Origin: Candidatus Peregrinibacteria bacterium
GTDB lineage: Bacteria; Patescibacteriota; Gracilibacteria; UBA1369
Length of the DNA: 64,000 bases
NCBI GenBank assembly: GCA_003153355.1
Contig: PLYH01000006.1
Location: 70,902 to 134,901, forward strand
Direction of reading: 5' to 3'
Translations under genes and position numbers: made by a program
The notes under the pieces: model-generated
Databases searched by the model: none
What the model saw: only the letters and a program-made list of their open reading frames with translations
What the model was told of the DNA's origin: nothing
Shown here: one piece after another, positions 8,852 to 64,000 of the stretch
Numbering within the stretch: the first letter of the stretch is position 1
How the letters are laid out: the number at the start of each line of letters is the position of its first letter

Positions 8852-8970
8852 TACAGAAACGTTAAGAACGAAATCATCATAAGCAAAAAATCGTCTTTTT
8901 ACAATGTCATAATTTGCAAAAAAGTAGGGATATGGTATATCTAAAAGCCAGTATTTTTTAATTCGTTTTT

Positions 8971-9615
8971 ATGTCCGGCGGACCTTCTGAAGAAGTAAAA
9001 AGTCGTGTAACCCTCATTGACGCCGATCGTACGTCTGAAGATGGAGTTCCTGCTATTACTGAGGTTGATCATGTCGTTGCACTTCCGCGTATTTCCAGTA
9101 TCCCTCCGGCTCCTTCGGATGCTGTTGTCCCGCCTGATGAAGCGGAAGGCAGCAGAGAGTTTTATCGTATGGCTGAACGAAGATCAATTCGTGAAAGCCG
9201 TGAACCTTTGCAGAAATCCTTTGTAAGTGCAGCTCAAGAACGTTTTGGAGAAGCCGTTCAGGAAGTTGATGATAAAAGTATATTTTTGATTTTCAGCGGA
9301 TACCCTATTTATGTTTTGCATAATGGCATTGAGGTATGTTCACATAGCAATCTCGGTAATTCAAAATCTCCCGATGTTTTAGAACAACCTGAACCGGAAG
9401 AAATTATTGAAGATCTTTTTCTCACCATCAATTTGAGGGCAGCTTTGATGCCTTTGGGATATGAAGTCATCGAAAAAGGTTTGAGTCCTGACGGTTATTA
9501 CGACTATGTTATGAGAAAGGACGTTCCTTTTGATTCAAAAGACCAGGTCGTTTCAGAACTCGATCAATTAAAAGAAATTTTAAAGCGGGTTGAAGCTGAA
9601 AACTCAGATGAGTGA
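8971..9615 (+). CDS. hypothetical protein, 214 aa
   Basis: Intact ORF, TATATC -10-like box at 8936-8941; no known family recognised. Confidence 0.65.
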   Translation: MSGGPSEEVKSRVTLIDADRTSEDGVPAITEVDHVVALPRISSIPPAPSDAVVPPDEAEGSREFYRMAERRSIRESREPLQKSFVSAAQERFGEAVQEVDDKSIFLIFSGYPIYVLHNGIEVCSHSNLGNSKSPDVLEQPEPEEIIEDLFLTINLRAALMPLGYEVIEKGLSPDGYYDYVMRKDVPFDSKDQVVSELDQLKEILKRVEAENSDE

Positions 9616-10185
9616 GATGAAATATTCGTGCAGCCGTGGGTCTGCGCGAAGTTCGGCGTGGAAGGTTGCAGCCAGAATTTTTCCTTGCTGGACCAGGACG
9701 ATTTCTTTGCCGTGCCGTGCGAGGATTTTCACTTCGGTTCCGGTTTTTTCAATGATTGGAGCCCGAATGAATGCAGCATGGAGGTTGTTAATTTTGAGTG
9801 ATGGAATCTGCAGGTCGGCGTAAAAACTGTCAATCTGCTGCCCGTAAGCATTGCGTCTGATGGTGATATCCAAAAGACCCAGGTGCGGCGGGATAATGTT
9901 TGAATTGATATTTTTGGCCAGAACGATGGCTCCTGCGCAGGTTCCAATGATGGGCGTTCCGGCAGCCGCGCGTTTGATGAGTTCTTTGCCGATGCCGGTC
10001 TGTTCAATAAAAAAACCGATGGTGGTACTTTCACCGCCCGGAATAATGAATGCCTCGCATGATGAAAGATCTTTCGGTTCGCGTACTTCAATAACCCGGT
10101 GACCAAGCTCTTGAACGATTTTTTTGTGTTCAATGACTCCGCCCTGGAAAGCTACAATGCCGATAGTTTTAGAGGTTTTTGCCAC
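9604..10185 (-). CDS. pdxT: Pyridoxal 5'-phosphate synthase glutaminase subunit PdxT
   Basis: [36 protein letters not shown]; overlaps pdxS. Confidence 0.95.
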
Positions 10186-11110
10186 GTTCTTGGAGACGAG
10201 TTTCTACCTGGTGTGCCTGAATGCCGAACATCGGTTCTTCCAAATCTTCCGAAACCTCAGCGAGTTTGGCAGGATCGTTGTAGTACATGGTTGCGAGTAC
10301 GATGGCGCGTGCGCGTTTTGCAGGATTTTTTGATTTGAAAATTCCCGATCCTACAAAGACTCCTTCGGCGCCGATTTGCATAAGGAATGCTGCATCAGCC
10401 GGAGTCGCCAGGCCGCCTGCGGCAAAGTTTACTACCGGTAACTTACCTGCTGTCCGGACTTTTTTTAATAACTCAAGATCCAGCCGTTCTTGAACTGCAT
10501 ATTTTTTTAACTGAACTTCGGACATTTTTTTCAATGATGCTATTTCTCCGAGAATTTTGCGCATATGGCGCACGGCTTCGATCACGTCTCCTGTTCCGGC
10601 TTCACCTTTGGTTCGAATCATGGCGGCGCCTTCCTGAATTCTTCGTAATGCTTCCCCCAGGTTTGTGGCGCCACATACAAAGGGAACAGTGAATCCGCTT
10701 TTGTTGATGTGTCTGGTGTCGGCTGGCGTCAAAACTTCGCTTTCATCAATAAAATCCACTTTCAACGCCTCCAAGATCTGAGCTTCAACAATATGGCCGA
10801 TCCTCACTTTTGCCATTACTGGAATTGAAACCGCTGCCTGAATCTCCTTGATCAGCTTGGGATCGCTCATGCGGGCGACGCCACCCTGCGCGCGGATGTC
10901 CGCTGGTACACGCTCCAGTGCCATTACCGCCACTGCTCCGGCTTTTTCCGCAATCCTGGCCTGGTCAGCGTTGGTCACGTCCATAATGACCCCTCCCTTA
11001 AGCATTTGCGCGAGGTTGGATTTGATTTCCAAGGTGCCTTTTGTAGGTTTTTTTGGCATAGTTTCAAAGTAAAGCGTGTGCACATTAACAAATCCAGGCT
11101 TGATTTTCAA
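10169..11110 (-). CDS. pdxS: Pyridoxal 5'-phosphate synthase subunit PdxS (start probably 11059)
   Basis: [52 protein letters not shown]; internal Met gives [15 protein letters not shown]. Confidence 0.96.
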
Positions 11111-11151
11111 TGGCTGCTATGCCATATTCCTGTTTACGTTAGTTTCCATTT

Positions 11152-12087
11152 ATGATCGTTGATGAACAATACGCGGGTTTGCGTCTGGATAAGGTTCTGA
11201 CTCAGCTTTTTCCTGACCATACCCGGAACTATTTTCAGAATCTTCTGGAGAAAGGTTTCGTGAAACTGAACGGAAAAACAGTCAAATCGAGTCAAAAAGT
11301 TCAGGCGGGAGACAAATTGGATGTCCGGTTCCCGGCTTTGCAGGAACTCACCCTTGAAGCCAAAGATATTCCTCTGAATATTGTTTATGAAGACAAGAAT
11401 ATTCTTGTTATCGATAAACCGGCCGGGCTGGTCGTCCATCCTGGTACGCACGGTTCGCACAGCGATGACAGCCTTGTGAATGCGATTCTTCATCACAGTA
11501 AGGATTCTCTGGGTGGGATTGGAGGAACTTTGCGCCCCGGCATTGTTCACCGTTTGGATAAAGACACTTCCGGACTTCTGGTTGTTGCCAAAAATGATAA
11601 AGCACAGCAGATGCTCATGGATCAATTTCAGAAAAAGGAGGTCGTGAAAATTTATTACGCTCTGGTTTCCGGTAAACTTGAACCCGAAAAGGGAACGATC
11701 GAAGCTCCGATCGGCAGAAGTCTGCAGGACCGAAAAAAAATGGCCGTGATGCAAGGAAAAACTTCCAAAGAAGCCGTGACCAAATATGAGGTTGCGCGTT
11801 ATCTTGAGGGCTATACTTATATAAAGATTTATTTACTGACGGGACGAACGCACCAAATCCGCGTGCATTTTGCGGCGATCGGTTTTCCGCTCGTCGGAGA
11901 TGCAACGTATGGCCGCGCCAAAGTGAACCATCTCTTTGAAAGGCAGTTCGGGCTTAAGCGTCAGTTTTTGCATGCGGCATATCTTTCCTTCACTTTGCCG
12001 GGCACTACAAAAAAAGGAGAGTTTGAATCTTCTCTCCCTTTGGATTTACAGCGTGTGCTCGACGGCCTGGAATCGGAAAAGGCTTGA
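11152..12087 (+). CDS. rluD: RluA/RluD-family 23S rRNA pseudouridine synthase
   Basis: S4 N-terminus; GIVHRLDKDTSGLLVVAK; TGRTHQIRVHFAAIGFPLVGD. Confidence 0.9.
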   Translation: MIVDEQYAGLRLDKVLTQLFPDHTRNYFQNLLEKGFVKLNGKTVKSSQKVQAGDKLDVRFPALQELTLEAKDIPLNIVYEDKNILVIDKPAGLVVHPGTHGSHSDDSLVNAILHHSKDSLGGIGGTLRPGIVHRLDKDTSGLLVVAKNDKAQQMLMDQFQKKEVVKIYYALVSGKLEPEKGTIEAPIGRSLQDRKKMAVMQGKTSKEAVTKYEVARYLEGYTYIKIYLLTGRTHQIRVHFAAIGFPLVGDATYGRAKVNHLFERQFGLKRQFLHAAYLSFTLPGTTKKGEFESSLPLDLQRVLDGLESEKA

Positions 12088-12088
12088 A

Positions 12089-12403
12089 TTAAGCCGTGAT
12101 TCCGGTGATTTCGAGCTGGGTGTAGTTCTGGCGGTGACCCTGGGTTTTCTTGTAACGCTTTTTTGGCGTGAATTTGAAAACGCGGATTTTTTCACCTTTG
12201 AAGTGTTTAACGACCTTTGCTTCAACCGATGCTCCTTTGACGTAAGGCATACCGATATTGGCGTCTTTGTCGTTATCCGAAACGAGCAGAACTTTATCGA
12301 ACGTCATGGTTTTTCCTTCTTCAGTCTCCAAGAGTTCAACGTCGATTTTATCGTTTTGAGTGACCTTGTATTGGCGGCCACCGATTTCTACAACTGCGAA
12401 CAT
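12089..12403 (-). CDS. rplU: 50S ribosomal protein L21
   Basis: MFAVVEIGGRQYKVTQNDKI...KRYKKTQGHRQNYTQLEITGI. Confidence 0.95.
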   Translation of the reverse strand: MFAVVEIGGRQYKVTQNDKIDVELLETEEGKTMTFDKVLLVSDNDKDANIGMPYVKGASVEAKVVKHFKGEKIRVFKFTPKKRYKKTQGHRQNYTQLEITGITA

Positions 12404-12460
12404 AGAGTTTTTATAAAAATTTGCTCTGTTAAGTTAATGAATTTTGGCTCAAAAATCAAG

Positions 12461-12952
12461 CTATTCTTTGGATTTAGGTTCACCGGCAGGTTTGGTTTCC
12501 GGAGAATGAAGGGTCGGAGGAGGAATTGTAACTGTCCCTGATGGCCCTTGTACAGCATTTTTAAGCTCCTTGATTGTTTGCCTGCGATCGGTTTGGATCT
12601 GGATTTCGGCCTTGTTGTCACATCCCGTATTTGTGTCTGCGGTTGCGCATTGTTCTTCCAATACGGCGATAATTTCCTCAGTACGTGCCGGGAGAGTTTC
12701 CGCAGCTTTTTCTGAAACTTGCTCCAGATCGGATAAATCAAGAACCAATTTTTCTTCTTCGGGGCCTTTAGGCTTAACAGAAGCTGGTTTTTCACCATCG
12801 GTCATTTCAATTACTGGCAAGCGTCTGGTTTTCTGGTCAAAAATATCTGAAGGAACTTTGGCGGTTGAGGGTTCTACATCCACGAAGCCTTCTGCAGGAA
12901 GTCCGTCATTGTCCAGCCCCATATTGTTATTTTTTCGTTTGGACATCTTCAA
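12461..12952 (-). CDS. hypothetical protein, 163 aa
   Basis: Intact ORF in intergenic space, low complexity/charged. Confidence 0.5.
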   Translation of the reverse strand: MKMSKRKNNNMGLDNDGLPAEGFVDVEPSTAKVPSDIFDQKTRRLPVIEMTDGEKPASVKPKGPEEEKLVLDLSDLEQVSEKAAETLPARTEEIIAVLEEQCATADTNTGCDNKAEIQIQTDRRQTIKELKNAVQGPSGTVTIPPPTLHSPETKPAGEPKSKE

Positions 12953-13012
12953 TTATTTATATATCGGCAGTTTATAGTAGTTGCTTCCGTTTCAGCAGTC
13001 AACAAGCAGAAA

Positions 13013-13285
13013 TCAGTTCAATCGCTCGGTTTGTTTATTCAGTTCCGCCTGGAGTACAACATTTTCAAGAAAAACTACCGGGCCGGGCACTTCGTATTCA
13101 CTAGCGTTTTCATTTTTTGGTACGCATTCCGGCTCTCCAAGGCTGTGTAATTGGCGCATGGCATTCACAGCTGTCTCAATAGCCAACAGTTGATGTGCGT
13201 TCATGCCTTTAGCGCTTTCAAAGACACTTTCGGCTGGTTGTTCATCGTTTTGATCTTCAGGAGTGAGCTGTGGATTTGCAAACAT
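13013..13285 (-). CDS. hypothetical protein, 90 aa
   Basis: Intact ORF filling the gap on the same strand as its neighbours. Confidence 0.45.
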   Translation of the reverse strand: MFANPQLTPEDQNDEQPAESVFESAKGMNAHQLLAIETAVNAMRQLHSLGEPECVPKNENASEYEVPGPVVFLENVVLQAELNKQTERLN

Positions 13286-13353
13286 AGTTTCATGTTAAAA
13301 AGCAGGTCGCGATCTTACCTGATTTGGCAGAGAGGTCAAGGTTTTTTGGATTT

Positions 13354-13929
13354 TCAGCTGTTGAAGGCGTTCATTGACGCATCGATACCATCGGTTATCC
13401 AGGTTTTTATTGCCTGAACGGATTTTTTGACCATTGATTTGAAGGTTGAGGTCTCTTCTTTATTGAATTTTCCCAGGACAAATGCAGTGGTTTCGTGTTC
13501 AAGGGCCGAAGTGGTGCCGCGGCTTTCTATGCCTACGCGCAGACGCGGAAAATTTTCACCCAACAGTTGGACCATGGATTTCATGCCGTTGTGGGTTCCG
13601 GGACCGCCCTTCGTGCGGATTCTGATCGAACCAAAAGGCGTATCAAGGTCATCGTAAATACAAAAGATGTCTTCTGGCGGCACTTTATAAAAAGCAGCAA
13701 TCGGCTGGACTGCTTCGCCCGAAAGGTTCATGAACGTCAGGGGCTTGACGAGCACCAGTTTTTCACCGTTAAAATTTGCCGTGCTAATCAGCGCCTTGAA
13801 CTTTTTTTCTTCCTTGAAATTTTCGGCGCCAAGTTCTTTATGAAGTTCATCGAGTACCGCCCACCCAGCATTGTGGCGGCTGTTTTCATATTCTTTTCCG
13901 GGATTGCCGAGTCCGACGATGATTTTCAT
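13354..13929 (-). CDS. pth: Peptidyl-tRNA hydrolase
   Basis: MKIIVGLGNPGKEYENSRHNAGW; PLTFMNLSGEAV; YDDLDTPFGSIRIRTKGGPGTHNGMKS. Confidence 0.95.
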   Translation of the reverse strand: MKIIVGLGNPGKEYENSRHNAGWAVLDELHKELGAENFKEEKKFKALISTANFNGEKLVLVKPLTFMNLSGEAVQPIAAFYKVPPEDIFCIYDDLDTPFGSIRIRTKGGPGTHNGMKSMVQLLGENFPRLRVGIESRGTTSALEHETTAFVLGKFNKEETSTFKSMVKKSVQAIKTWITDGIDASMNAFNS

Positions 13930-13941
13930 GGTTATATTTTT

Positions 13942-15381
<1,440 letters not shown>

Positions 15382-50894: not shown

Positions 50895-52283
50895 ATGCAC
50901 GTTTACAATACCCTCAGCGCGAAAAAAGAACTTTTCCAGCCCCTCCATGACAGTAAAATTGGAATGTACGTTTGCGGTCCCACGGTTTATGATTTTGCGC
51001 ATCTGGGGCATGGACGTTCGGCCGTTTCTTTTGATGTGATCCGCCGCTACCTTATTTATAATGGATACAATGTAAACTTTGTTTCAAACTATACCGACAT
51101 CGACGACAAAATGATCAACCGGGCGGAGATCATGAAAATTTCGGTAAAGGATTTGGCAGACCGGGTCATCCCTGAATATGCCAAAGATTACGCTTCACTC
51201 GGCATTATGGTTCCCGATGTTCTGCCGAAAGCGACACACCATGTGGAGCAGATGATCGAATTGATCCGTAAACTGGAAAAAAAGGGCGCTACGTACGTTC
51301 TGGATGACGGGGTTTATTTTGACATTTCAAAATTCCCTGAATACGGAAAATTGTCCAAACAAGATCTGGATGCTCTAAAAAGCGGCGCAAGAGTAAAAAC
51401 GAAAGAGTCCAAAAGACAGTTCCAGGATTTTGTTCTGTGGAAATTTTCCAAGCCGGGCGAACCGGAATGGGCCAGTCCGTGGGGAAGCGGTCGCCCCGGT
51501 TGGCACATTGAGTGCAGTGCCATGAGCAGGGAATATTTAGGGGACAGTTTTGATATTCACGGAGGCGGCGCGGATCTGATGTTTCCGCATCATGAATGTG
51601 AAATTGCCCAGAGCGAATGCGCACTGGACAAGCCTTTCGCCAAATACTGGCTCCATAATGGATTCATCCAGATCAACAACGAAAAGATGTCAAAATCTCT
51701 GGGAAATTTTTTTTTACTCAGAGACGTTTTCGCCAAATATCCTCCGCAGGCGGTTCGCTATCTGTTTTTACAAACGCACTATCGTTCGCCGATTGAGTTT
51801 ACGGATGAAATCCTTGCCCAATCCAAAAATAGCTTGATGCGTCTGCACGATTTCATGAACAGAATGAAAAATCACGAACCAGAAATTGCAAACGGCAAAC
51901 AACAAGATTTTGATGATTTTATTGCTTCCACCCAGAAAAATTTTGAAGATGCCATGGATGACGACTTTGAAACTCCTCAGGCTTTAGCTGCTCTTTTTGA
52001 TTTTGTGAAAGAGGTGAACCGCCGCATGGATGCAAAAAATCTGACCAGAGATTCCCAGGAACTTGCCATGACTTTTTTAATGAGGATTGATTCCGTACTC
52101 TGCGTTCTGGTTTCAACCCAGAGCGATGAAGTAGACAGTGAAACTACAATGCTGATGGAAGAACGGGAAAAAGCCCGTAAAAACAAGGACTGGAAAAAAT
52201 CGGATGAGCTCCGGGATGAACTTTTGAAACGGGGCATTCAACTTGAAGATACTCCTCAGGGAACTACCTGGAAGAAGATTTAG
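50895..52283 (+). CDS. cysS: Cysteinyl-tRNA synthetase
   Basis: MYVCGPTVYDFAHLGHGRSAVSFDVIRRYL; GGGADLMFPHHECEIAQSE; KMSKSLGNF. Confidence 0.97.
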   Translation: MHVYNTLSAKKELFQPLHDSKIGMYVCGPTVYDFAHLGHGRSAVSFDVIRRYLIYNGYNVNFVSNYTDIDDKMINRAEIMKISVKDLADRVIPEYAKDYASLGIMVPDVLPKATHHVEQMIELIRKLEKKGATYVLDDGVYFDISKFPEYGKLSKQDLDALKSGARVKTKESKRQFQDFVLWKFSKPGEPEWASPWGSGRPGWHIECSAMSREYLGDSFDIHGGGADLMFPHHECEIAQSECALDKPFAKYWLHNGFIQINNEKMSKSLGNFFLLRDVFAKYPPQAVRYLFLQTHYRSPIEFTDEILAQSKNSLMRLHDFMNRMKNHEPEIANGKQQDFDDFIASTQKNFEDAMDDDFETPQALAALFDFVKEVNRRMDAKNLTRDSQELAMTFLMRIDSVLCVLVSTQSDEVDSETTMLMEEREKARKNKDWKKSDELRDELLKRGIQLEDTPQGTTWKKI

Positions 52284-53631
52284 CTGTTATCGATTCGGAA
52301 ATTTTATAAACGTCTCCGGCACCCATTGTGATTATCACATCGTAATCGCTTTTTTTGATGGTACGGATTGTTGTTTCTATCCCCTGGCCGTCCTGGACGT
52401 TCCTGTGGTGTTTTGCAATTGCTCCGACAAATTTTTCCGTGTCGATTTTTTTTCTGTCTTCGACTGAATCGCGAACGCCGTAAATATTTGGAATGATGAC
52501 TGCATTGGCGTCTTTGAAGGCGCTGACAAAATCTCTCAGAAGTTTATGCGTGCGGCTGAACTGGTGCGGCTGGAAAACGCACAGGATTTTTGCTTTTTTA
52601 CCGAATCTTTCGCGAGCTGCTTTTAGGGTGGCTTTGATTTCCGTCGGGTGATGTCCGTAATCATCAATGACAATCGCTTTTCCGCAATAGCCCACTGTTT
52701 CAAAGCGGCGTGATGATCCCTGATAACCGTTTAATGCCGCAATAACTGTTTTTAGCGGCAGTTTGTATTGATCTGCAAGAGCGATGACTGCAACTGCATT
52801 CATGAGATTATGTTCCCCTGGAATGTGCAATTTTAATTCAGCAATTTTCTTCTTGTTATGGAAGACGGTGTTTTTTTTAAGCTGATATTCTGATCCGATT
52901 GATTTTCCGAACCAGACAATTTTTAATTTGCCGGTATTTTTCAATATGCTTCGGATATTTTTATCGTCACGGTTGGCAATGACCATACCGTTTTTTGGCG
53001 GTTTTTGGACAAATTGAAGAAAAGCTTTTTTGTAGTCGGCAAGGTTTTTGTAGTAATCCAAGTGATCCGCTTCAATGTTGGTGATGATGATCGTTTGAGG
53101 CTGGTAATTTAAAAATCCGCGTTTGTATTCGCAGGATTCAATAATAAGTTCATCACCTTTGCCGTTATGGGCGTTGCGTTGATTCAGTTCCCGGATGTTC
53201 GCGCCGACGATCACAGAAGGATCTTTTTTTGCTTTTAGAAATACCGCAGCTGCCATGGCTGTGGTCGTAGTTTTTCCATGAGTTCCGCAGATGCAGATAG
53301 TGAGCTTGATTTGAGTAAGAAGCCCTACCGCTTCGGGATAAGAATATTGCGGTATCCGGCGTTTTTTTGCTTCCTGCCTTTCCAGATTGGTTTCCGAAAC
53401 TGCGGGTGAATAAATAACCATTTGAGTTTTTGCCGGAATATTTTTGCCCTGATGGCCGATTTTAATTCTCAAGTCTTCTTTTTTTAAAGCTTCAACGGTA
53501 TGACTTAACGTCTGATCCGAACCTGAAACCGTTTTTTTTTGGGATTTCATGATTCTGGCCAGTCCGCTCATGCCGCTTCCTCCGATGCCTATAAAATGGA
53601 GATATTTGCTGGTTTTTAGATCGTTGATCAT
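52264..53631 (-). CDS. murC: UDP-N-acetylmuramate--L-alanine ligase
   Basis: HFIGIGGSGMSGLARIM; CGTHGKTTTTAMAAAVF; DDYGHHPTEIKATL; FQPHQFSRT. Confidence 0.96.
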   Translation of the reverse strand: MINDLKTSKYLHFIGIGGSGMSGLARIMKSQKKTVSGSDQTLSHTVEALKKEDLRIKIGHQGKNIPAKTQMVIYSPAVSETNLERQEAKKRRIPQYSYPEAVGLLTQIKLTICICGTHGKTTTTAMAAAVFLKAKKDPSVIVGANIRELNQRNAHNGKGDELIIESCEYKRGFLNYQPQTIIITNIEADHLDYYKNLADYKKAFLQFVQKPPKNGMVIANRDDKNIRSILKNTGKLKIVWFGKSIGSEYQLKKNTVFHNKKKIAELKLHIPGEHNLMNAVAVIALADQYKLPLKTVIAALNGYQGSSRRFETVGYCGKAIVIDDYGHHPTEIKATLKAARERFGKKAKILCVFQPHQFSRTHKLLRDFVSAFKDANAVIIPNIYGVRDSVEDRKKIDTEKFVGAIAKHHRNVQDGQGIETTIRTIKKSDYDVIITMGAGDVYKISESITAKSSSR

Positions 53632-53729
53632 TGTGACTCTCAGTCTAATACTCTTCCCGAATCAATCAAAGAAAAAATTGCGGTTTTAAAGCAAAACGGG
53701 TATATTTGCCCCTGTTTTAAGTGATAATT

Positions 53730-54155
53730 ATGGCTTTTCAATTTAATCACACCTCGAATTTCACCAAAATGATCATTATCGTGGAATTTTTGGTGGTCTC
53801 GTATCTGCTCTACACTTTGACCAAATCCGTCTATCAAAGCTACCAGATCGATCAGGACATCTCGAATTTTAAAAACCAAAACGATCTGATAGCACAGGAA
53901 AACAAGCAGAAACAAGACGATTACAGCTATTACAGTTCTGACGCTTACATTGAAAAAATAGCAAAGCAGAATCTGGGCCTGGTGAACCAGGGTGAACAGG
54001 TTATTGTCATCCCTTCAACCGACGCTAACAGCAGGCAAACGAGCGCAGGTGATACTTCAGCGCAGGCGCAAAGTGACACGAATAGTATCCAGGCTCTTCC
54101 CAATCCGCAAAAATGGTGGAAATTTTTCTTTGACATTCATCAGGGGAAACAGTAA
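53730..54155 (+). CDS. Septum-formation-initiator family (FtsB/DivIC-like) protein
   Basis: N-terminal TM, coiled coil, DAYIEKIAKQNLGLVNQGEQVIVIP; start ATG 53730 preferred. Confidence 0.8.
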   Translation: MAFQFNHTSNFTKMIIIVEFLVVSYLLYTLTKSVYQSYQIDQDISNFKNQNDLIAQENKQKQDDYSYYSSDAYIEKIAKQNLGLVNQGEQVIVIPSTDANSRQTSAGDTSAQAQSDTNSIQALPNPQKWWKFFFDIHQGKQ

Positions 54156-54209
54156 ATTTCTTGTGCTTCGGTCAAGTTCATTGTGTTGTGAAGCATAAGC
54201 AAAATATGT

Positions 54210-54284
54210 CGCGGGGTAGAGCAGAGGCAGCTCGTCGGGCTCATAACCCGGAGGTCGTAGGTTCGAATCCTACCCCCGCTACCA
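54210..54284 (+). tRNA. tRNA-fMet (initiator, CAU)
   Basis: CGCGGGG...CCCCGCT acceptor with C1/U72 mismatch, anticodon CTCATAA flanked by GGG:CCC pairs, T-arm GTAGG-TTCGAAT-CCTAC, encoded CCA. Confidence 0.95.
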
Positions 54285-54296
54285 TCGGTTTGACAA

Positions 54297-54328
54297 AGGG
54301 GCCCGCAATCGCGGGTCCTTCTTTGTTT
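54297..54328 (+). terminator. Rho-independent terminator downstream of tRNA-fMet
   Basis: AGGGGCCCGC-AATC-GCGGGTCCTT stem followed by CTTTGTTT. Confidence 0.8.
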
Positions 54329-54404
54329 GTCCCGTGTCAGCCAGATTGAGCGCCATCTCAAGGAGTCATAATGGGGTGTAGACCAAAACCGTGAAGGCTC
54401 GAAC

Positions 54405-54887
54405 GTGAGTTGGTGGGTTTGGCTCGTTGTCGTTCTGATCGCGGCCGTTATCGAGGTCGCCGGCAGCGGTTTGGTGTTCATCGGAATTGCCGCCGCCGCC
54501 TTGGTCACCGCGCTGGTCGCGCTATTCATACCTTCGTTTCCCTTCCAAGCCGTGGTATTCGTGGCAGCCACGGCTCTCTACCTATTCCTGCTGCGACCAA
54601 CCGTGATCGCCCTTGTATCCGGCAGGAGGTCTACGGGTGGATCGATCTCCCCTGGCGTCGCTCTTGCGGGCAAGCGGGCAATCGTGTCACAGGTAGTAAC
54701 GGAAGATGGCGGCCAGATACGTGTCGGGCAGGGCGAATTCTGGAGCGCCAGGCTCTACAGCGCCGGCGAAAGCATCCCTATCGGCACTCGAGTCGACATA
54801 GTTCTCGTTGACGGCTTGGTGGCGCTGGTTGCTCCCATGGAGTTACCGTCGCCGGTGGGGACCAGTCACTCCTCGTCGTCCACATGA
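54405..54887 (+). CDS. NfeD-like membrane protein
   Basis: TM segments followed by OB-like GKRAIVSQVVTEDGGQIRVGQGEFWSARLYSAGESIPIGTRVDIVLVDGLVALV. Confidence 0.85.
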   Translation: MSWWVWLVVVLIAAVIEVAGSGLVFIGIAAAALVTALVALFIPSFPFQAVVFVAATALYLFLLRPTVIALVSGRRSTGGSISPGVALAGKRAIVSQVVTEDGGQIRVGQGEFWSARLYSAGESIPIGTRVDIVLVDGLVALVAPMELPSPVGTSHSSSST

Positions 54888-55138
54888 CGCATGAGCCGAT
54901 CGACCCGCCGGAGATCTTCGGCAATGTCGCGCGACTGACGCTCTAGGCGGCTGAGCACGTCGTCGGGACCCTGAACAGCCTCATCTTCGTCGAGTAGGCC
55001 CAGCACCTGTTCAGAAACGGTGCGCAGCTGCCTACGCAACTGACCGGCGGTCAGAGCCCCGGCGTGCTCGAGATCGCGGGCAGCTTGTTTGAAAGCGCGG
55101 TAAGCTCGTTCCACGTCGGAGCCATCCGGCCGTTCCAT
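54866..55138 (-). CDS. hypothetical protein, 90 aa, helical
   Basis: Intact ORF, coherent charged helical composition. Confidence 0.6.
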   Translation of the reverse strand: MERPDGSDVERAYRAFKQAARDLEHAGALTAGQLRRQLRTVSEQVLGLLDEDEAVQGPDDVLSRLERQSRDIAEDLRRVDRLMRHVDDEE

Positions 55139-55208
55139 GCTTACGTTCTCCTCATGATTGAACCTAACGGAACTCGAACCGGATCCGTCGGGCTAGACTC
55201 GATTTGAC

Positions 55209-55805
55209 ATGGACATTGGAACGATTGGCGCCTCGACTTCCCATCTTCGGTATCTCTGCCGTGTATTCGGTCAAAGAGACGTGGCGCAGCCGCCAACGGC
55301 CGATGATCACGGCGTTGGAGCCTTCGTCAGTATCGCGCTCCCGTCTGACCGAGAACGAAAGCTAATCGGCATCATAGCCGATAGTATCCTGATCAATCCT
55401 GAATATGGAAATTATGGGCCACGCCTTTCGTCGGCCGAGGAGCTGACTATCTTTTCTCCCGACGCCCTCGATGAACGCGGCATTCTGGTGGTGATTCAGG
55501 TGCTTGGTTATGTCGACGAGCACGGGCCCCATCATGACATTCCACCCTGGACGGCACACGCCGGAGCTTTAGTTTCCACTTTGACAGCCGAAGACGTCAT
55601 TGCTTTCCACCGCGCTCCCGACGGAAGCTTCATGATGGGCTACCAGCCACGCATGATTCAGGCGAACGACGTTATATTGAGCAGCATTTTACTCAACACG
55701 ATTGAGCGCTTGGCTCCATCATTTCCCGATCAAACGGATCTGTTGGGTCTGCTTCGAGAAACACTTGCCTGGCAGACGGCTATAGGGCCGATGGCCCGAA
55801 CGTAG
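55209..55805 (+). CDS. hypothetical protein, 198 aa (HAS-barrel-like N-terminus?)
   Basis: Intact ORF; GAFVSIALPSDRERKLIGIIADSILINPEYG resembles HerA-associated barrel sequences; weak. Confidence 0.6.
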   Translation: MDIGTIGASTSHLRYLCRVFGQRDVAQPPTADDHGVGAFVSIALPSDRERKLIGIIADSILINPEYGNYGPRLSSAEELTIFSPDALDERGILVVIQVLGYVDEHGPHHDIPPWTAHAGALVSTLTAEDVIAFHRAPDGSFMMGYQPRMIQANDVILSSILLNTIERLAPSFPDQTDLLGLLRETLAWQTAIGPMART

Positions 55806-55823
55806 CAGCGCGCCGGAGATCGC

Positions 55824-56171
55824 CTAAACGGCAGGCTCGACCAGGAGAGGTCGAGCGGCGATCCTGCGCTTGGTCTCAAACTCAGGTGCAATACGCTCCC
55901 GGCGATCGAGAACCTTGCCAACAATTTCGAGTTCGCCTGGAGTGAGATTCAGAAATACCAGGCCGCCGATAACTCCCGCGAGCGCGAACCACGGCAGCTC
56001 GACCAACTGATTCGTCACCAACTCTTGACGGATGACGAAATTGTCCTTGCGCACCAGCAGGACGGTACCCAGTATCTGTTCATGCGCGTCCACTACGTGC
56101 ATGCCGTACTGGAGTGGGAATCTCCCACCATCAGACCGCTCGCTCACTCCCACGCAGCCGCCCCACCACAC
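55824..56171 (-). CDS. hypothetical PRC-barrel-like protein
   Basis: LQYGMHVVDAHEQILGTVLLVRKDNFVIRQ; start uncertain. Confidence 0.5.
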   Translation of the reverse strand: MWWGGCVGVSERSDGGRFPLQYGMHVVDAHEQILGTVLLVRKDNFVIRQELVTNQLVELPWFALAGVIGGLVFLNLTPGELEIVGKVLDRRERIAPEFETKRRIAARPLLVEPAV

Positions 56172-56291
56172 GTCTTCGTATACAGCATAAATAGTACATG
56201 GCTCTGTGTCAATAAGAAATTTCGGACGAGTAAATGTTCAATGAATATGTCGTATCAACATGTAAGGGTGTTGTCCGGACGCGTTTGGTAT

Positions 56292-56316
56292 TTGACACGT
56301 GAGCCTGTCGTGTCAA
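56292..56316. promoter_or_regulatory. Dyad TTGACACG-N9-CGTGTCAA
   Basis: Perfect 8-bp inverted repeat in the intergenic region upstream of the sigma-factor gene; left arm contains TTGACA. Confidence 0.4.
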
Positions 56317-56523
56317 TATATGCCACCATTACGATGTGCGTGCGCACCCTACCGTGACACTGCTTTTCTTCGCACCACAAACGCGTAATCAGCCTCATTC
56401 ATCCGCCCCAGTAACTACTTACGTATCCTATTCAGCGAGGATTCATGTTAGATGTGGAGAATAGAAGTGTGATCTGGCTCTCAGTAGCCAGGTTGTAGGG
56501 CCCAATTTGACTGGAAGTGGTTT

Positions 56524-57129
56524 GTGTCTGTATCTCCTGCTATAACGCCCGCTGAGGCTGCGGTCTGGGGTGGTACGGCATTCCCCGAATCGCTATTCAT
56601 TGCCCAGCTTCGGCTTCAAGATTCGGAAGCCTTTGCCTGTATGTACGACCGGTACAAGACGCCTATCTACAACTACCTTCTCCGGCTCACCGGCACCGTG
56701 GAATTGGCGGACGATCTGACCGCGGATACCTTCCTCAGTGCCTTCGAGGCTCTACCTGGTCTCCGCGCGGACTCAGCGATTTCCGCGTGGCTCTATCGCA
56801 TAGCTTCGAATCGGTTCAAAGACGTGCTCCGCCGTCGCAAGATCATCAACTGGTTGAGCCTTGGAGATCGGAAGGATGCGGAACGCCTGCTGTCCGCCAA
56901 CGGCGGAGAGGATTCTGTACCCGAGCGAGAGCTCGTGCAGATCGCTTTGCGAAACATCAAACCCGACTATGCAATATGTTTGACACTTCGTCTGGCCGAA
57001 GGGTTCTCCACCGAGGAGACCGCCGCGATCTTGAAGGCAACTCCGGACTCAATCCGTATGCGGTTGTGCCGGGCGCGACAGATGTTCAAGACCGCCTACG
57101 CGCAAGCCGAGCGGGGCGAGATTTCGTAG
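56524..57129 (+). CDS. RNA polymerase sigma-70 family (ECF-type) factor
   Basis: FACMYDRYKTPIYNYLLRLTGTVELADDLTADTFLSAFEAL (sigma2), C-terminal sigma4 TEETAAILKATPDSIRMRLCRAR; GTG start. Confidence 0.9.
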   Translation: MSVSPAITPAEAAVWGGTAFPESLFIAQLRLQDSEAFACMYDRYKTPIYNYLLRLTGTVELADDLTADTFLSAFEALPGLRADSAISAWLYRIASNRFKDVLRRRKIINWLSLGDRKDAERLLSANGGEDSVPERELVQIALRNIKPDYAICLTLRLAEGFSTEETAAILKATPDSIRMRLCRARQMFKTAYAQAERGEIS

Positions 57130-57163
57130 GCCGAACGGATCGACTGGCGAGCTTGAAGCGAGG

Positions 57164-57922
57164 CTACTTGTAGCCGCCAAAAACTGCGTGACCGGAGCGA
57201 GCCCAAAACACCTCGACTCCTGTGAAGCCTGCTTGTCGAAGCCAATCCATGTGCTCGGGAATAGTCGATGGATGGTCGAACTCGTCATCTGGGAACTCGA
57301 AGAGATTCCACTCAAGCTCGATGAATTGTCTATAGTCATCCAATGTCCCGGTGCGCGAGAGTGACAGCGCTCTAACGTCATCCTCGTAGGACCGCTGGTA
57401 ATAGGCTCTGGCACGAGAACCATTCGGTTGGATCACATCCGCAATGAGCAACGCTCCGCCTGCCTCGAGCTTCTGATACAGAGCACGATATAGCTCCCTT
57501 TTCCCGTTTCCATCAAGGTGATGGAGAACCAGGCTGCTGACGAAAGCTCGCACCGCGTCGGGAATTGAGTCAACCCATGCATCTTCCACGAGATTGAACT
57601 GTTTCAACTCAACTCGGTCGAGAGATTCTGAAAGCTCTTTGCTCGCCGCCTCGAGCATCGCGCGTGACCCATCCAGCCCGATCACTCGCGCTCGCGGGAA
57701 ACGCTGCAATATCGCGTGACTCAACCACCCAGCGCCCACGCCGATGTCGACGGCAGTGAAGGCGTCATCCTCCGCGACCGAAATTAGGTCCACGATAGCC
57801 CGACCGATTTCCTCTCGCCATGGCACGAAAATCGCGCCGTGTTCAATGAACACCGCGGAGGTTTCCTCGCTCCACGTTTCAACTGCTTTCTCTGAATCCA
57901 CATCCAATCGTATCGGGCACAA
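57164..57922 (-). CDS. Class I SAM-dependent methyltransferase
   Basis: AVDIGVGAGWLSHAILQRFPRARVIGLDGSRAML; FVSSLVLHHLDGNGKRELYRALYQKLEAGGALLIAD. Confidence 0.88.
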   Translation of the reverse strand: MCPIRLDVDSEKAVETWSEETSAVFIEHGAIFVPWREEIGRAIVDLISVAEDDAFTAVDIGVGAGWLSHAILQRFPRARVIGLDGSRAMLEAASKELSESLDRVELKQFNLVEDAWVDSIPDAVRAFVSSLVLHHLDGNGKRELYRALYQKLEAGGALLIADVIQPNGSRARAYYQRSYEDDVRALSLSRTGTLDDYRQFIELEWNLFEFPDDEFDHPSTIPEHMDWLRQAGFTGVEVFWARSGHAVFGGYK

Positions 57923-57990
57923 CGTAAACTCCTGAAGAGCGTCAGGCGAAGCTCATCTCTATTGGCCCGGCGTGACGATTTCAGGGAGGC

Positions 57991-60030
57991 TTGATGGCCG
58001 CGAAGACCGAGGGGGTGCTGCCACCTGTTCCACGGAGCCTTTCCGTGCCTTCGAGGGAATCCGCTGTTTCCCGTCAGTCTGGGAGTCCTCGCCTTACCGT
58101 CGCGGGTTTGCTCCTCGCCGGCATTGTCATAGCGGCATTTGGCCTGCGCGTCTGGGCGGTCGGCGAGCGTGCCATGCATCTGGACGAGTCGACCGTAGCC
58201 TGGTTCGCCTGGCAGCTTCTGACCGGCCATGGATATTCGTACGATCCCGTGTATCACGGGCCATTTCAGCACGAAGTACTTGCTCTCATCTTTCTTTTGT
58301 TCGGCTCCAGCCAGACCAGCGCGAGGATGCTGGCCGTCGTCCTGGGTACGGGCTTGGTCGTCCTTCCATGGTTTATTCGCGACTACCTCGGCAAGGCGAC
58401 TGCCCTCATGGCCTGCTTTCTGCTCGCCGTCTCTCCGTCATTCGTGTACTTCGCCCGTTTCGAGCGTGACGACACCTACATGGAGTTCTTCACGTTCCTG
58501 ATGGTGATCTTCGCGATGCGCTTCCTGCGCGACCGCCGGCCTTGGCAGATCTACTCCGCGACCGCGACGTTCGCCCTGGCGTTCGCAACCAAGGAGAGCA
58601 TCTATATCGTGGCCTTCATCTTCGGCACGTATGCGGTTATCTATCTGGCCGGTCGTTTCATTGGAAGAACCGGCGCCGGACACCGGCTGGCGAAGGCATC
58701 CGGGGCGTTACCCATGCCACTGCTGATCGCATTGCTCGTCGTGCTGACCCTGGCGTTGATCATCACGCCGGTTTCGGAGTTGTACGTGCCTGTACCGGCG
58801 GTGGCGTGGGTTCTTATAGCGCTCGGCGTAGCCGCCGGCGCCGTTGCCACGGCCGCGACGTCCGAAAGCTCAAGTCAATCCCTTGCTCCCTGGAAGCAGA
58901 TGTGGCGCCGGCAATGGATAAGCGGCCTCACGATTGCCTTGGCGATCATTGTCCTGATGTACTCGACCTTCGGTACTAATCTCAATGGCCTGTGGGATCA
59001 GGCTCACCCGTTCTTCAACAACGGACACACCTGTCCCTTTCCGCTCGCCTTCAATCTAGATGCCTGTCGCAAGGACATCATCGGCGGGCTCTTCTACTGG
59101 CTCAGCCAGCACAAGGTTGCCCGAGGCGGCCAGCCCTGGTACTACTACTTCTTGATCTATGGACTGTACGAGCAGCTGGCAATAGTGTTCAGCGTGATCG
59201 CGATAGGGCGCACCCTTGCCGATCGCGGACTGGCCCTGGGCAATCGAACGCTCAGGATGTTCTTTACCTACTGGGGTGTGCTGGCCTTCATAGTGTATTC
59301 GTGGGCGGGCGAGAAGTTTCCGTGGCTGGGCATCCATCCCCTACTTCCAATCACCGTTCTGGCCGCGTTTGGCCTCACGGATGTAATAGCGACCGCGTGG
59401 TCACGAACACGCGATCCGTCAAGGTCAAACGCTCACCGAACTCCGTGGCGCGTGGTCAGCAGGACAGTGTTGTTAGCCGGAATCGGACTGATTGTGATCG
59501 AGCTGCATAACACCTACGAGCTGAACTTCGTGAATGGCGCCAATCCGGTTGAGATGATGGTATATGTCCAGAGTGCGCCCGATACCGTCACCGATGCAAA
59601 CCGGATCGGCGTTCTGTCCAATCGAGCCACAAAGGGCACCACTCTGCCTGTAACAATCGACTCTGCCGATGCGTGGCCATTTGCCTGGTATCTCAGAAAC
59701 ATGTCCAATGTCGGCTATCCCACGGGGGCGCAATCGGTGAAGCCGCCATATTCCAAGAATCCGATAGTGATTCTCGATCAAACCGATGCCGAAACTCTGC
59801 CTGTGCCCGCCTCCCTCAGGACGCAATACACTCGGACGCTCCGGCGACTCGACTGGTGGTTTCCCGAGGACTATAAGACGTGGACCTGGCAAAGTTTTGG
59901 ACAGAAGGTGCTCAACCCCAATTCATGGCGGGCAATCTGGAACTGGGAAACAGTCCGGACGCCCTTTGGGCCACGTGACGGAACGTTGTATTACCTATAT
60001 GTGAAGAAGGGATACTTTGCGCCGTTCTAG
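57991..60030 (+). CDS. Agl23/TIGR03663-like flippase-associated membrane protein
   Basis: Multi-TM; ERAMHLDESTVAWFAWQLLTGHGYSYDPVYHGPFQHEVLALIFLLFGSSQTSARMLAVVLG; YSWAGEKFPWLGIHPLLP. Confidence 0.8.
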   Translation: MMAAKTEGVLPPVPRSLSVPSRESAVSRQSGSPRLTVAGLLLAGIVIAAFGLRVWAVGERAMHLDESTVAWFAWQLLTGHGYSYDPVYHGPFQHEVLALIFLLFGSSQTSARMLAVVLGTGLVVLPWFIRDYLGKATALMACFLLAVSPSFVYFARFERDDTYMEFFTFLMVIFAMRFLRDRRPWQIYSATATFALAFATKESIYIVAFIFGTYAVIYLAGRFIGRTGAGHRLAKASGALPMPLLIALLVVLTLALIITPVSELYVPVPAVAWVLIALGVAAGAVATAATSESSSQSLAPWKQMWRRQWISGLTIALAIIVLMYSTFGTNLNGLWDQAHPFFNNGHTCPFPLAFNLDACRKDIIGGLFYWLSQHKVARGGQPWYYYFLIYGLYEQLAIVFSVIAIGRTLADRGLALGNRTLRMFFTYWGVLAFIVYSWAGEKFPWLGIHPLLPITVLAAFGLTDVIATAWSRTRDPSRSNAHRTPWRVVSRTVLLAGIGLIVIELHNTYELNFVNGANPVEMMVYVQSAPDTVTDANRIGVLSNRATKGTTLPVTIDSADAWPFAWYLRNMSNVGYPTGAQSVKPPYSKNPIVILDQTDAETLPVPASLRTQYTRTLRRLDWWFPEDYKTWTWQSFGQKVLNPNSWRAIWNWETVRTPFGPRDGTLYYLYVKKGYFAPF

Positions 60031-60128
60031 CTTCGACGCCTCCGTCGACACGCTCACGGATCCGGAATGTTGCGCTCCGAGTCGAGTCGTGAGTATGCGC
60101 GTGCATTGTTGGGGAAAGGTGACCCGAG

Positions 60129-62951
60129 ATGGCTGAGCTTGCGCGATCCCGGCAACGAGCCTTCGGCGACTTCAGTCTGGATCGAGCTCTGTGGCCAAAT
60201 CTGCAGGCGGTGATCGCCCAGGAGATCGACTGGCAGATGGTCGGATACGCAGCTCTGGTCATAGCCGCGTTCACTCTCCGGTTTTGGGACGTGGGTGGCC
60301 GAGCCATGCATCATGACGAGAGTTTGCATGCGACCTATGCCTGGTATCTCTTCAAAGGGCGAGGGTATCAGTACAACCCTCTCATGCACGGCCCTCTGCA
60401 GTTCTATGTCATGGCCTTCTTCTACATGCTCTTCGGAGACCATACGACCACAGCGCGTCTATTCGCGGTTCTGTGTGGGAGCGCCATCGTAGCCCTGCCG
60501 TACTTTATGCGGCGTGACTTGGGGACCTTGGGAGCGGCCATCGCAGCCGTCGCGTTGGTCATCTCGCCGGCGTTTCTCTATTATTCGCGGTTCGCTCGGG
60601 ACGACGTGTACCTCGATTTCTTCACGCTGTTGATGGTCGTCGGGTTCTTGGGATTTCTGCGGAGCCGGCGACCTCGCAGTCTCTACCTCGTTGCGGCGGC
60701 CGCGGCCCTGGCCATGGCTACCATGGAAGCTTCATATATCGTGTTCTTTATCTTCGGCAGCTTCTTGGGTTTGGCAGTGCTCAGCGAATGGCTGACACTC
60801 CCCTTCGACCGCAGGCCGATAACCGAGGCTGTGCGCTCCATCACCGTCGAGTCATGGCTCTGGATAGCCGCAATCTTTCTGGTGATAACCATTCTTCTCT
60901 ATTCAACGTTTCTGACAAATCCAAGCGGAGTGTTTGACTTTGGATATGGGCTGCTCAGCCCAAATCGCATGGACATACTCGGCGGCTTAACCTACTGGCT
61001 TTCACAACATGGGGTCGCGCGGGGCGGGCAGCCGTGGTTCTACTATCTCCTGCTCTTTCCGCTTTACGAGCCCTTCGCAATGTTGTTCGCATTGGGCGGA
61101 GTCTTCTGGGCCGTGGTCAGACGCCGTATGTTCACGACCTTCCTGGCCCTTTGGTTCGCTCTGGCATTGGCCATCTACAGCTGGGCGGGCGAGAAGATGC
61201 CATGGCTTTTCCTACACCCACTTCTCCCCGGCATTTTGCTGGCGGCTACTTTCACCGGCTATCTCTTGGAACGATACGGGAGGGTCGGAAGAACAGCATT
61301 GATCGGCTTACTCGTAGTTCTGGCACTTGTCGAGGCTCACTCCGCCCAGGCACTGACGTTTGCTGACGGCGCCAATCCCACCGAGATGCTAATCTACGTA
61401 CAAACCTCGAATGACGTTCCCATCGTCTCCAACGAGGTCCTGGGACTTGTGAAGCACCTGCCCGCAAAGACCACGCCTCCCCTGATTCAGATTGATGATT
61501 CCGATCTTCAGGGCTGGCCGTTCGAATGGTACTTCCGCAACCTACCAGCGGCCGACATCAGCTACAGCAGCAACTTCGCGAACCCCGCCGCGCCGATACT
61601 CATCATGCTCGACCCGGAGCACGATCGCTATGCAAGCTCGCTTCAGAGCCGCTACGTGGTTTCGCGGTATCGATGGAATTGGTGGTTTCCCGAGGACTAC
61701 AAGGGCTTCACCTTCGACAACGGAATGTGCGGCACGGCTGCGCACGAGACTCCCTGTCCTCCCGGAACCCAGGGAACCGTGTTCCTGAAGACGGGAATGC
61801 CCTGCCCGCCAACCGCCTTGGTGGCGGGCAGCAATTGCTCGCTGATTCAAACTCCCGCGGCAATCAATCTGCTTCACGCGATCACCAATGACAGCACCTG
61901 GAGGAATCTGTGGGACTGGTACGCCTATCGAACACCCTTCGGTCAGCGTGGCGCCCGGATGCTTTATCTGTATGTCCGCAAGGACTTGGTGCCGGCATCG
62001 GCACGTACGGGCACAAGCTCCAGTGGCGTGACCAATACCTACCATCAGCTCGCAATTCGCTCGACTCTTACATTCGGAAATACGGGCCTCTCAGCCGGCC
62101 GGCTCCTCGACCCTCATGGCTTGACGCGAGGGGCCAATGGCGACATCTACGTGGCGGATTCAGGGAATCACCGGATCTCGATCTATTCGCCCACTCGTGT
62201 ATTCCTGGGGCAGATCGGCAAGCCGGGCACGGGAAGCGGTGAGTTCAACATCAACCAGTCGCCCATGGCGGTTGCCGTGTCCCCATCGGGCACAATCTAC
62301 GCTACCGACTGGTGGAATCACCGGATTGAGGAGTTCGGTCCCGATGGTCACATAATCCGCTCATGGGGGCATTACGGGCTGCATGGGCCTTACGCCTTCT
62401 TCGGCCCTCGCGCGATCGCCCTAGGGCCCAATAGGGACGTTTACGTGGCAGATACCGGGAACCGGCAGATCGCGGTGTTCTCGCCCACCGGCCGTTTCCT
62501 GTTCCGGTTTGGACGGGCAGGATCCGCAGCCGGCCAGTTCGAGGAGCCTTCGAGTGTAATCGCCGCTCCCAACGGCGACATCTATGTCGCCGACATGTGG
62601 AACTCGCGGATTCAGCGATTTGACGCCGGCGGCCATTATCTGGGGAGTTGGCCCGTTCCCTCATGGCAGTCGCAGTCATACGAGGAACCGTACCTCGCGC
62701 AGCTGCCAAACGGGAACATATTAGCCACAGATCCTACCAACTCTCGCATCCTCGAGTTCACTGCCAGTGGACGGCGCGTGGGCGCGATCTCAGATTCGAG
62801 ATTCAGTATGCCTATCGGAGTGACGGCAGGGCCGAATGGAACGATCTACGTGACGGACGCCGCCAACAATGACGTTATCGCCTTCCGGGTTGGTCGGCGA
62901 ACCGGCAATGTCGCCGTGGCGCCGTCAGGCTCCCGCATCCCGAAACCGTAG
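60129..62951 (+). CDS. Agl23/TIGR03663-like membrane protein fused to C-terminal NHL repeats
   Basis: GRAMHHDESLHATYAWYLFKGRGYQYNPLMHGPLQFY...YSWAGEKMPWLFLHPLLPG, then repeats PHGLTRGANGDIYVADSGNHRISIYSP. Confidence 0.85.
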   Translation: MAELARSRQRAFGDFSLDRALWPNLQAVIAQEIDWQMVGYAALVIAAFTLRFWDVGGRAMHHDESLHATYAWYLFKGRGYQYNPLMHGPLQFYVMAFFYMLFGDHTTTARLFAVLCGSAIVALPYFMRRDLGTLGAAIAAVALVISPAFLYYSRFARDDVYLDFFTLLMVVGFLGFLRSRRPRSLYLVAAAAALAMATMEASYIVFFIFGSFLGLAVLSEWLTLPFDRRPITEAVRSITVESWLWIAAIFLVITILLYSTFLTNPSGVFDFGYGLLSPNRMDILGGLTYWLSQHGVARGGQPWFYYLLLFPLYEPFAMLFALGGVFWAVVRRRMFTTFLALWFALALAIYSWAGEKMPWLFLHPLLPGILLAATFTGYLLERYGRVGRTALIGLLVVLALVEAHSAQALTFADGANPTEMLIYVQTSNDVPIVSNEVLGLVKHLPAKTTPPLIQIDDSDLQGWPFEWYFRNLPAADISYSSNFANPAAPILIMLDPEHDRYASSLQSRYVVSRYRWNWWFPEDYKGFTFDNGMCGTAAHETPCPPGTQGTVFLKTGMPCPPTALVAGSNCSLIQTPAAINLLHAITNDSTWRNLWDWYAYRTPFGQRGARMLYLYVRKDLVPASARTGTSSSGVTNTYHQLAIRSTLTFGNTGLSAGRLLDPHGLTRGANGDIYVADSGNHRISIYSPTRVFLGQIGKPGTGSGEFNINQSPMAVAVSPSGTIYATDWWNHRIEEFGPDGHIIRSWGHYGLHGPYAFFGPRAIALGPNRDVYVADTGNRQIAVFSPTGRFLFRFGRAGSAAGQFEEPSSVIAAPNGDIYVADMWNSRIQRFDAGGHYLGSWPVPSWQSQSYEEPYLAQLPNGNILATDPTNSRILEFTASGRRVGAISDSRFSMPIGVTAGPNGTIYVTDAANNDVIAFRVGRRTGNVAVAPSGSRIPKP

Positions 62952-63533
62952 CCATGCCGCTGAAACGGCCTCTCTCAAGTGGTCGAGGGTGTCGTCGTTC
63001 CGAATCACCTCGGTCACGAGCGACCTGTCAAATGCCGGCTGAGCCGCGATGCGCTTCTTCGCCTCCTCGGTGGAATATCCGCGTAGATCTGTCAGGCGAC
63101 TGAATTGCTTGGAGAGTGAGCTGTCAACGAACCAGACTCCTTGCATCCGACTGAGCAGCGGGCTGTCGAGGAGACGAATGGCTTCGACCGTCACAACCCC
63201 GGCTGCAACCTCGCCCTCCGTGTCTTCGAGCTTCCGGTCGACGTATTGCCGGACAGCAGGATGCACCAATGCCTCAAGCTTCCGCAGGGCCTCCGGGCTG
63301 TCGAAAACAAGCCGCCCCAATCGCTGCCGATCAACCGAAGAATCAGGAGCAAGCATTCCGCTGCCGAACTCGCGCGCGATATCGATTGACAGGGGAGTTT
63401 CCGGCCCCATCAGCGCGTGGGTGACCTCATCGGCGTCAATGACCTCAAGCGCGCCCAGGCTCCTGGTCATCTCGGCCACAGTCGATTTACCGCAACCGAT
63501 CGGACCCGTGATCCCAAGGGCGCGTAGACTCAA
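62925..63533 (-). CDS. coaE: Dephospho-CoA kinase
   Basis: LGITGPIGCGKSTVAEMTRSLGALEVIDADEVTHALM; LEALVHPAVRQYV. Confidence 0.93.
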   Translation of the reverse strand: MSLRALGITGPIGCGKSTVAEMTRSLGALEVIDADEVTHALMGPETPLSIDIAREFGSGMLAPDSSVDRQRLGRLVFDSPEALRKLEALVHPAVRQYVDRKLEDTEGEVAAGVVTVEAIRLLDSPLLSRMQGVWFVDSSLSKQFSRLTDLRGYSTEEAKKRIAAQPAFDRSLVTEVIRNDDTLDHLREAVSAAWLRFRDAGA

Positions 63534-63552
63534 TCCAACCCGAACCCCGAGC

Positions 63553-64000
63553 TCACGAGTCGGCAGCCATTAGCTCCTCGGTGAGGAGGGTTAACCTGCT
63601 CATTGTCTCCGCGTACGAGTCGGTGAGCGCTCGCAGATCGTCAACTGAGCCGGTGGGAGCATTTGCCGTCAACCGTTTCAGGATCGGGGCGGCCTCCGAC
63701 TGAGCCTGTCCCAGGTCTGCCGCGATTTCAGAACGCGGGCGCTGACTTGAAATAACGACCGGCGGAGGAGCTACCGGGGCAGAGAATCTGAGATTTCGGC
63801 GATAACGGCCAGCCTGAAAGTCCGACCAGTTCCCATCGTAGACCTGTAATGAGCCGCCTTCGATGGACCAGATCTCGGTTGCGAGTCGATCGATCAGAAA
63901 CCTGTCATGCGAAACCATTACGAGTGTCCCGCCAAAGTCTGCCAGTGCGCGCTCCAGCGCTTCCCGAGCGGAGATGTCCAAATGGTTGGTCGGCTCGTCG
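63553..64000 (-). CDS. ABC-F family ATPase, C-terminal part (runs off the window)
   Basis: DEPTNHLDISAREALERALADFGGTLVMVSHDRFLIDRLATEIWSIEGGSLQVYDGNW. Confidence 0.88.
   Translation of the reverse strand, partial: DEPTNHLDISAREALERALADFGGTLVMVSHDRFLIDRLATEIWSIEGGSLQVYDGNWSDFQAGRYRRNLRFSAPVAPPPVVISSQRPRSEIAADLGQAQSEAAPILKRLTANAPTGSVDDLRALTDSYAETMSRLTLLTEELMAADS

Follow-up and report, generated by a model that had tools for sequence, protein, structure and literature searches.

Is the abrupt change of genome style at an initiator tRNA gene in this Candidatus Peregrinibacteria assembly a property of the organism or of its assembly? The window, meaning the whole 64,000-nucleotide stretch analysed (G000:C7:70902-134901), is the final 64 kb of the 134,901-base contig C7, and positions given without a contig name refer to it. 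The host assembly (G000) consists of 7 contigs and 1.456 Mb, is 99.01% complete and 0.91% contaminated, and belongs to an order with genome sizes of 0.7-1.5 Mb, which together with the host's gene content would fit Patescibacteria. With a probability of about 0.98, we consider contig C7 to be an assembly chimera, which follows the host up to its fMet tRNA gene, carries approximately 9.7 kb of Chloroflexota sequence beyond it and has its true continuation at the start of contig C1. The feature is an assembly artefact, not a biological one. Chimeric contigs in metagenome-assembled genomes, and the poor sensitivity of single-copy-gene estimates to misassembly, are the subject of the GUNC paper (PMC8201837), and the Jorg paper deals with k-mer misassembly in CPR bins (PMC8172020). 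The papers that our literature search returned treat chimeric contigs in general, and none concerns the C7 join.

Composition and gene content beyond the tRNA

The first-pass annotation, made from the letters alone, had described a sharp switch at the initiator tRNA to a GC-rich right side, and both elements of this description hold. Left of the tRNA, 2-kb windows have a GC content of 0.39-0.47, compared with 0.55-0.61 on the right, and GC3 of the genes is 0.42-0.53 on the left side and 0.58-0.71 on the right. Per 100 bases, GC rises from 0.38 (bin from 54101) to 0.57 (bin from 54201) and stays high thereafter, placing the step within approximately 100 bases at the tRNA. A tetranucleotide comparison of both sides had also been proposed: the right 9.7 kb have an L1 distance to the genome mean of 0.429 (z = 7.2; reference of 145 windows of the assembly with mean 0.133, SD 0.041 and maximum 0.296) and are the strongest tetranucleotide outlier in the whole assembly, whereas the left 9.7 kb, at 0.126, are typical of the genome. 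Tetranucleotide distances to six Chloroflexota-type loci are 0.15-0.24 for the right part and 0.55-0.67 for the left part.

The right side carries the following features:

54285..64000, + strand: Chloroflexota chromosome fragment that runs off the contig end, collinear with locus L037 and a composition outlier
54405-54887, + strand: nfeD (Pfam NfeD)
54866-55138, - strand: DUF7553-like gene with a homologue in L037
55209-55805, + strand: gene extra relative to L037, with no counterpart in the L037 series
55824-56171, - strand: gene with an L037 homologue (by homology)
56524-57129, + strand: sigma-70-type factor (Pfam), also in L037
57164-57922, - strand: methyltransferase (Pfam), extra relative to L037
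57991-60030, + strand: first PMT_2 protein (Pfam), also in L037
60129-62951, + strand: PMT_2/NHL protein with NHL repeats (Pfam), also in L037
62925-63533, - strand: coaE (Pfam CoaE), also in L037
63553-64000, - strand: end part of an ABC-F gene (homology to L037)

L037 holds fMet, nfeD, the DUF protein, the 55824 homologue, the sigma factor, both PMT_2 proteins, coaE and ABC-F in the order and orientation of the window, and the two are collinear but for the two added genes, 55209 and 57164. This synteny at the donor's tRNA itself is with one relative, L037, and the nfeD neighbourhood was not found at the other Chloroflexota fMet regions examined (L116, L118-L120, L133, L223-L228). The 60129-62951 protein has most of its relatives in bins that bear the title Chloroflexi or Chloroflexota, and L037 comes closest, at 57% identity. 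Among the ten proteins of 54285-64000, a block whose far end lies beyond the contig, no Pfam match points to an integrase, transposase or phage gene. The earlier reading that different gene families follow the tRNA, with housekeeping genes (coaE, ABC-F) and no mobile genes, is thus confirmed by Pfam and by homology to L037. From 54258 to the contig end the sequence is Chloroflexota chromosome; the donor is placed to phylum level, and its species was not found in the collections searched. The title of L037, 'Proteobacteria bacterium isolate Centralia_MAG_67', is probably wrong: we infer its phylum from the other matches of the 60129-62951 protein and from its fMet gene, which is exactly identical to that of L116 (the Chloroflexi bin of L038). 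Among the matches of that protein, the public bins titled 'Proteobacteria bacterium' (L037, L045 and L065, which are Centralia_MAG_67, _338 and _106) group with Chloroflexota loci, and their titles may be wrong.

It is extremely improbable that the window comes from one organism with a native region of odd composition past the tRNA. GC is high elsewhere in the assembly too, at 68-74 kb of C1 (as much as 65% per kb), though in a stretch with an N-gap, but the genes beyond the tRNA match Chloroflexota and the first PMT_2 protein has no counterpart in 58 relatives of the host. In addition, coaE would be duplicated, since the host's own copy lies at C7:55319-55834 (contig coordinates) and the window copy makes two in the assembly. 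The composite tRNA and the relatives, which carry on with the genes of C1 (both below), also contradict such a region, and a real compositional island is ruled out by the Chloroflexota synteny together with C1.

A composite initiator tRNA

The initiator tRNA gene divides into three parts:

54210-54284, + strand: tRNA-Met(CAT), fMet; the GC step falls within this gene
54210..54225, + strand: native-only 5' part, ending with A16 (alignments, A16 versus T16)
54226..54257, + strand: stretch identical in both lineages (alignment), tRNA positions 17-48, which holds the false join
54258..54284, + strand: foreign 3' part with a TAGG/CCTA T-stem and U72, identical to L037 and L116

The first-pass annotation had supposed that the two tRNA halves could stem from two organisms and had suggested comparing them with the initiator tRNAs of each lineage. 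Against the fMet gene of the same-family locus L008, positions 1-48 are identical and all five differences fall at positions 49-71; against the Chloroflexota-type L037, the sole difference is position 16. This position is A in 5/5 same-family fMet genes aligned (L008, L009, L018, L029, L036) and T in L037 and the other Chloroflexota fMet genes aligned, with the exception of a C in L128. Hence the 5' half matches the host family and the 3' half matches Chloroflexota. Of the 89 genomes in the host's order, one, the window's own, has an fMet pattern ending in CGCTACCA (U72), and 48 have this pattern with the ending CGCAACCA (A72), including this assembly at C1:10-56; both patterns capture part of the fMet variety, and genomes matching neither are uninformative. 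The alignments and the U72/A72 counts bear out the supposed dual origin. Because position 16 is native and everything from position 49 onwards is foreign, the join lies within positions 17-48, at 54226-54257 of the window.

What identifies the 5' part as native is A16, and the foreign 3' part is recognised by U72 along with its TAGG/CCTA T-stem; an intact native fMet would carry the base pair C1/A72. We rejected the T-stem as a stand-alone marker; U72 is the better one, since L020, a relative within the order, pairs TAGG/CCTA with A72. The C1/U72 pair, previously read as a possible product of fusion, is no such sign: complete Chloroflexota initiator tRNAs of the donor clade carry both C1 and U72. 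Most Chloroflexota initiator tRNAs aligned (L116-L123, L125, L127, L128, L133) have U72, mostly facing C1, and the host's order has A72; a literature search on U72 in Chloroflexota initiator tRNAs found no paper.

The true continuation on contig C1

On the left side, three host genes lead up to the tRNA:

50895..52283, + strand: cysS, host genome, named by homology and gene order (cysS-murC-ftsL-fMet in L154, L009 and L029)
52264..53631, - strand: murC-like ligase gene, host genome, with a match in 99/99 genomes searched; full-length matches adjoin fMet in relatives
53721..54155, + strand: ftsL-like gene, the last native protein gene of C7, named from position and size

Homologues of the ftsL-like gene (42-59% identity) sit between murC and fMet in relatives. 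Searching the genome itself with the junction sequence gave a match at C1:1-56; a match at C5:226143 was dismissed as the conserved core of a tRNA-Pro. Contig C1 begins at tRNA position 20 and has 29 bases in common with C7 (54229-54257), after which it reads as L008 to the tRNA end, with A72. A tRNA-Met follows directly after this fMet 3' half, at 70-146 of C1, and the genes thereafter, named from their translations, are a CDP-alcohol phosphatidyltransferase, a CarS-like, a LytR-type and a T4SS-type ATPase gene, radC and glyS. The relative L154 has the order cysS-murC-ftsL-fMet-tRNA-Met-phosphatidyltransferase-carS, the series in L156 extends to lytR, T4SS and glyS, and L155 and L157 keep most of it. 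Since relatives pass from murC-ftsL-fMet to tRNA-Met and the genes of C1, the left part of C7 and C1 are chromosomal neighbours. The native 3' half of fMet and the genes expected next are the start of contig C1, which adds to the earlier note the true continuation, found in the same assembly. That the error lies instead at C1, whose start would belong elsewhere, with the C7 join being right, is barely conceivable: the fMet 3' half is indeed present on both contigs, but the half on C1 is identical to that of the same-family L008, with A72, and the genes next to it are those of the relatives.

Integration into the tRNA is the only serious biological alternative, namely that a genomic island or large transferred segment entered fMet and brought along another 3' half, so that the native one would now lie at the far end of the insert, at the C1 start. 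As in tRNA-integrated elements and islands, the C7 breakpoint is inside a tRNA with a new 3' half, the native 3' fragment elsewhere may be a displaced one, and a displaced 3' fragment with a 29-base identical core is the expected trace of integration. However, unlike such elements, the 9.7 kb lack integrase, transposase and phage genes, and the block is ordinary chromosomal sequence of the donor, whose housekeeping genes keep their arrangement from the donor's own fMet to the contig end. On C1, a native fMet 3' half, the candidate att core, opens the contig, so that this fragment and its core stand at a bare contig start with no foreign element sequence ahead. The composition of the block is not ameliorated, and the donor belongs to another phylum. 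We consider this integration very unlikely, and give equally little credence to a true transfer of a Chloroflexota chromosomal segment into the host lineage's fMet that yielded a composite U72 initiator tRNA.

The assembly chimera joined at the tRNA, as the first-pass annotation had proposed, is instead borne out by the composite tRNA, the C1 start, the L037 collinearity and the composition. The two sides of the junction have different synteny and different best relatives, and the junction itself sits in sequence common to both sources, where L008 and L037 agree throughout tRNA positions 17-48. Other contig ends (C2-C5, C6-C3) overlap by exactly 25 bases, which suggests that this was the graph overlap of the assembly. 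Both organisms would have been present in one metagenome, and the 29-32 identical bases common to both fMet genes would have exceeded the 25-base overlap; the assembler may then have taken the wrong exit from the shared node, leaving the true continuation as the start of C1. The run shared with L037 is 32 bases, whereas the C1-C7 overlap is 29; an exact fit with the C1 start at position 20 requires a donor with T19, a base found in several Chloroflexota.

C7 does not differ in kind from known chimeric contigs, in which fragments of different sources are falsely joined at a short common sequence, and here too the single-copy-gene estimate barely registers the misjoin (0.91% contamination). It differs from them in that the join is placed within 32 bases, flanked by two lineage-specific positions, and in that the displaced true continuation sits in the same bin.

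Consequences for the assembly

The importance of the finding is practical only. With ratings of 99% completeness and 0.9% contamination, the genome includes approximately 9.7 kb from another phylum as well as a hybrid initiator tRNA, and mining it risks wrongly crediting NfeD, a sigma factor, two PMT_2 proteins, a second CoaE, ABC-F and a U72 initiator tRNA to the host lineage. C7 should be cut within the shared stretch, stripped of 54258-64000 and joined to C1. Lineage-diagnostic tRNA positions can locate a misjoin to approximately 30 bases without reads.

We found 14 runs of N in the assembly, 6 of them in or beside tRNA genes, which make up 0.22% of the sequence:

C2:3377: two-base N run at tRNA-Leu
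C4:4694: two-base N run at tRNA-Asp
C5:4680: two-base N run at tRNA-Ser, recognised by eye from its flanks as the gap breaks the model
C6:49371: two-base N run at tRNA-Met
C6:68183: two-base N run at tRNA-Leu, likewise recognised by eye from its flanks with the gap breaking the model
C7:20208: two-base N run at tRNA-Val, outside the window

The assembly is fragile at tRNAs, where its scaffold joins cluster; other misjoins or damaged tRNAs at these six sites are possible. Contig C4 (6241 bases; L148) consists of partial 16S and 23S rRNA ends with approximately 4 kb and two tRNAs between them, an unusually long spacer; both rRNA genes are cut off by the contig ends. The second GC-rich stretch, at C1:68001-74000 (L199 about 8000-14000; 0.54-0.65 per kb), has Cys/Gly/Ser/Asp-rich, lipoprotein-like ORFs, an N run at 69193 and typical host genes on both sides, and may be a transfer or another join.
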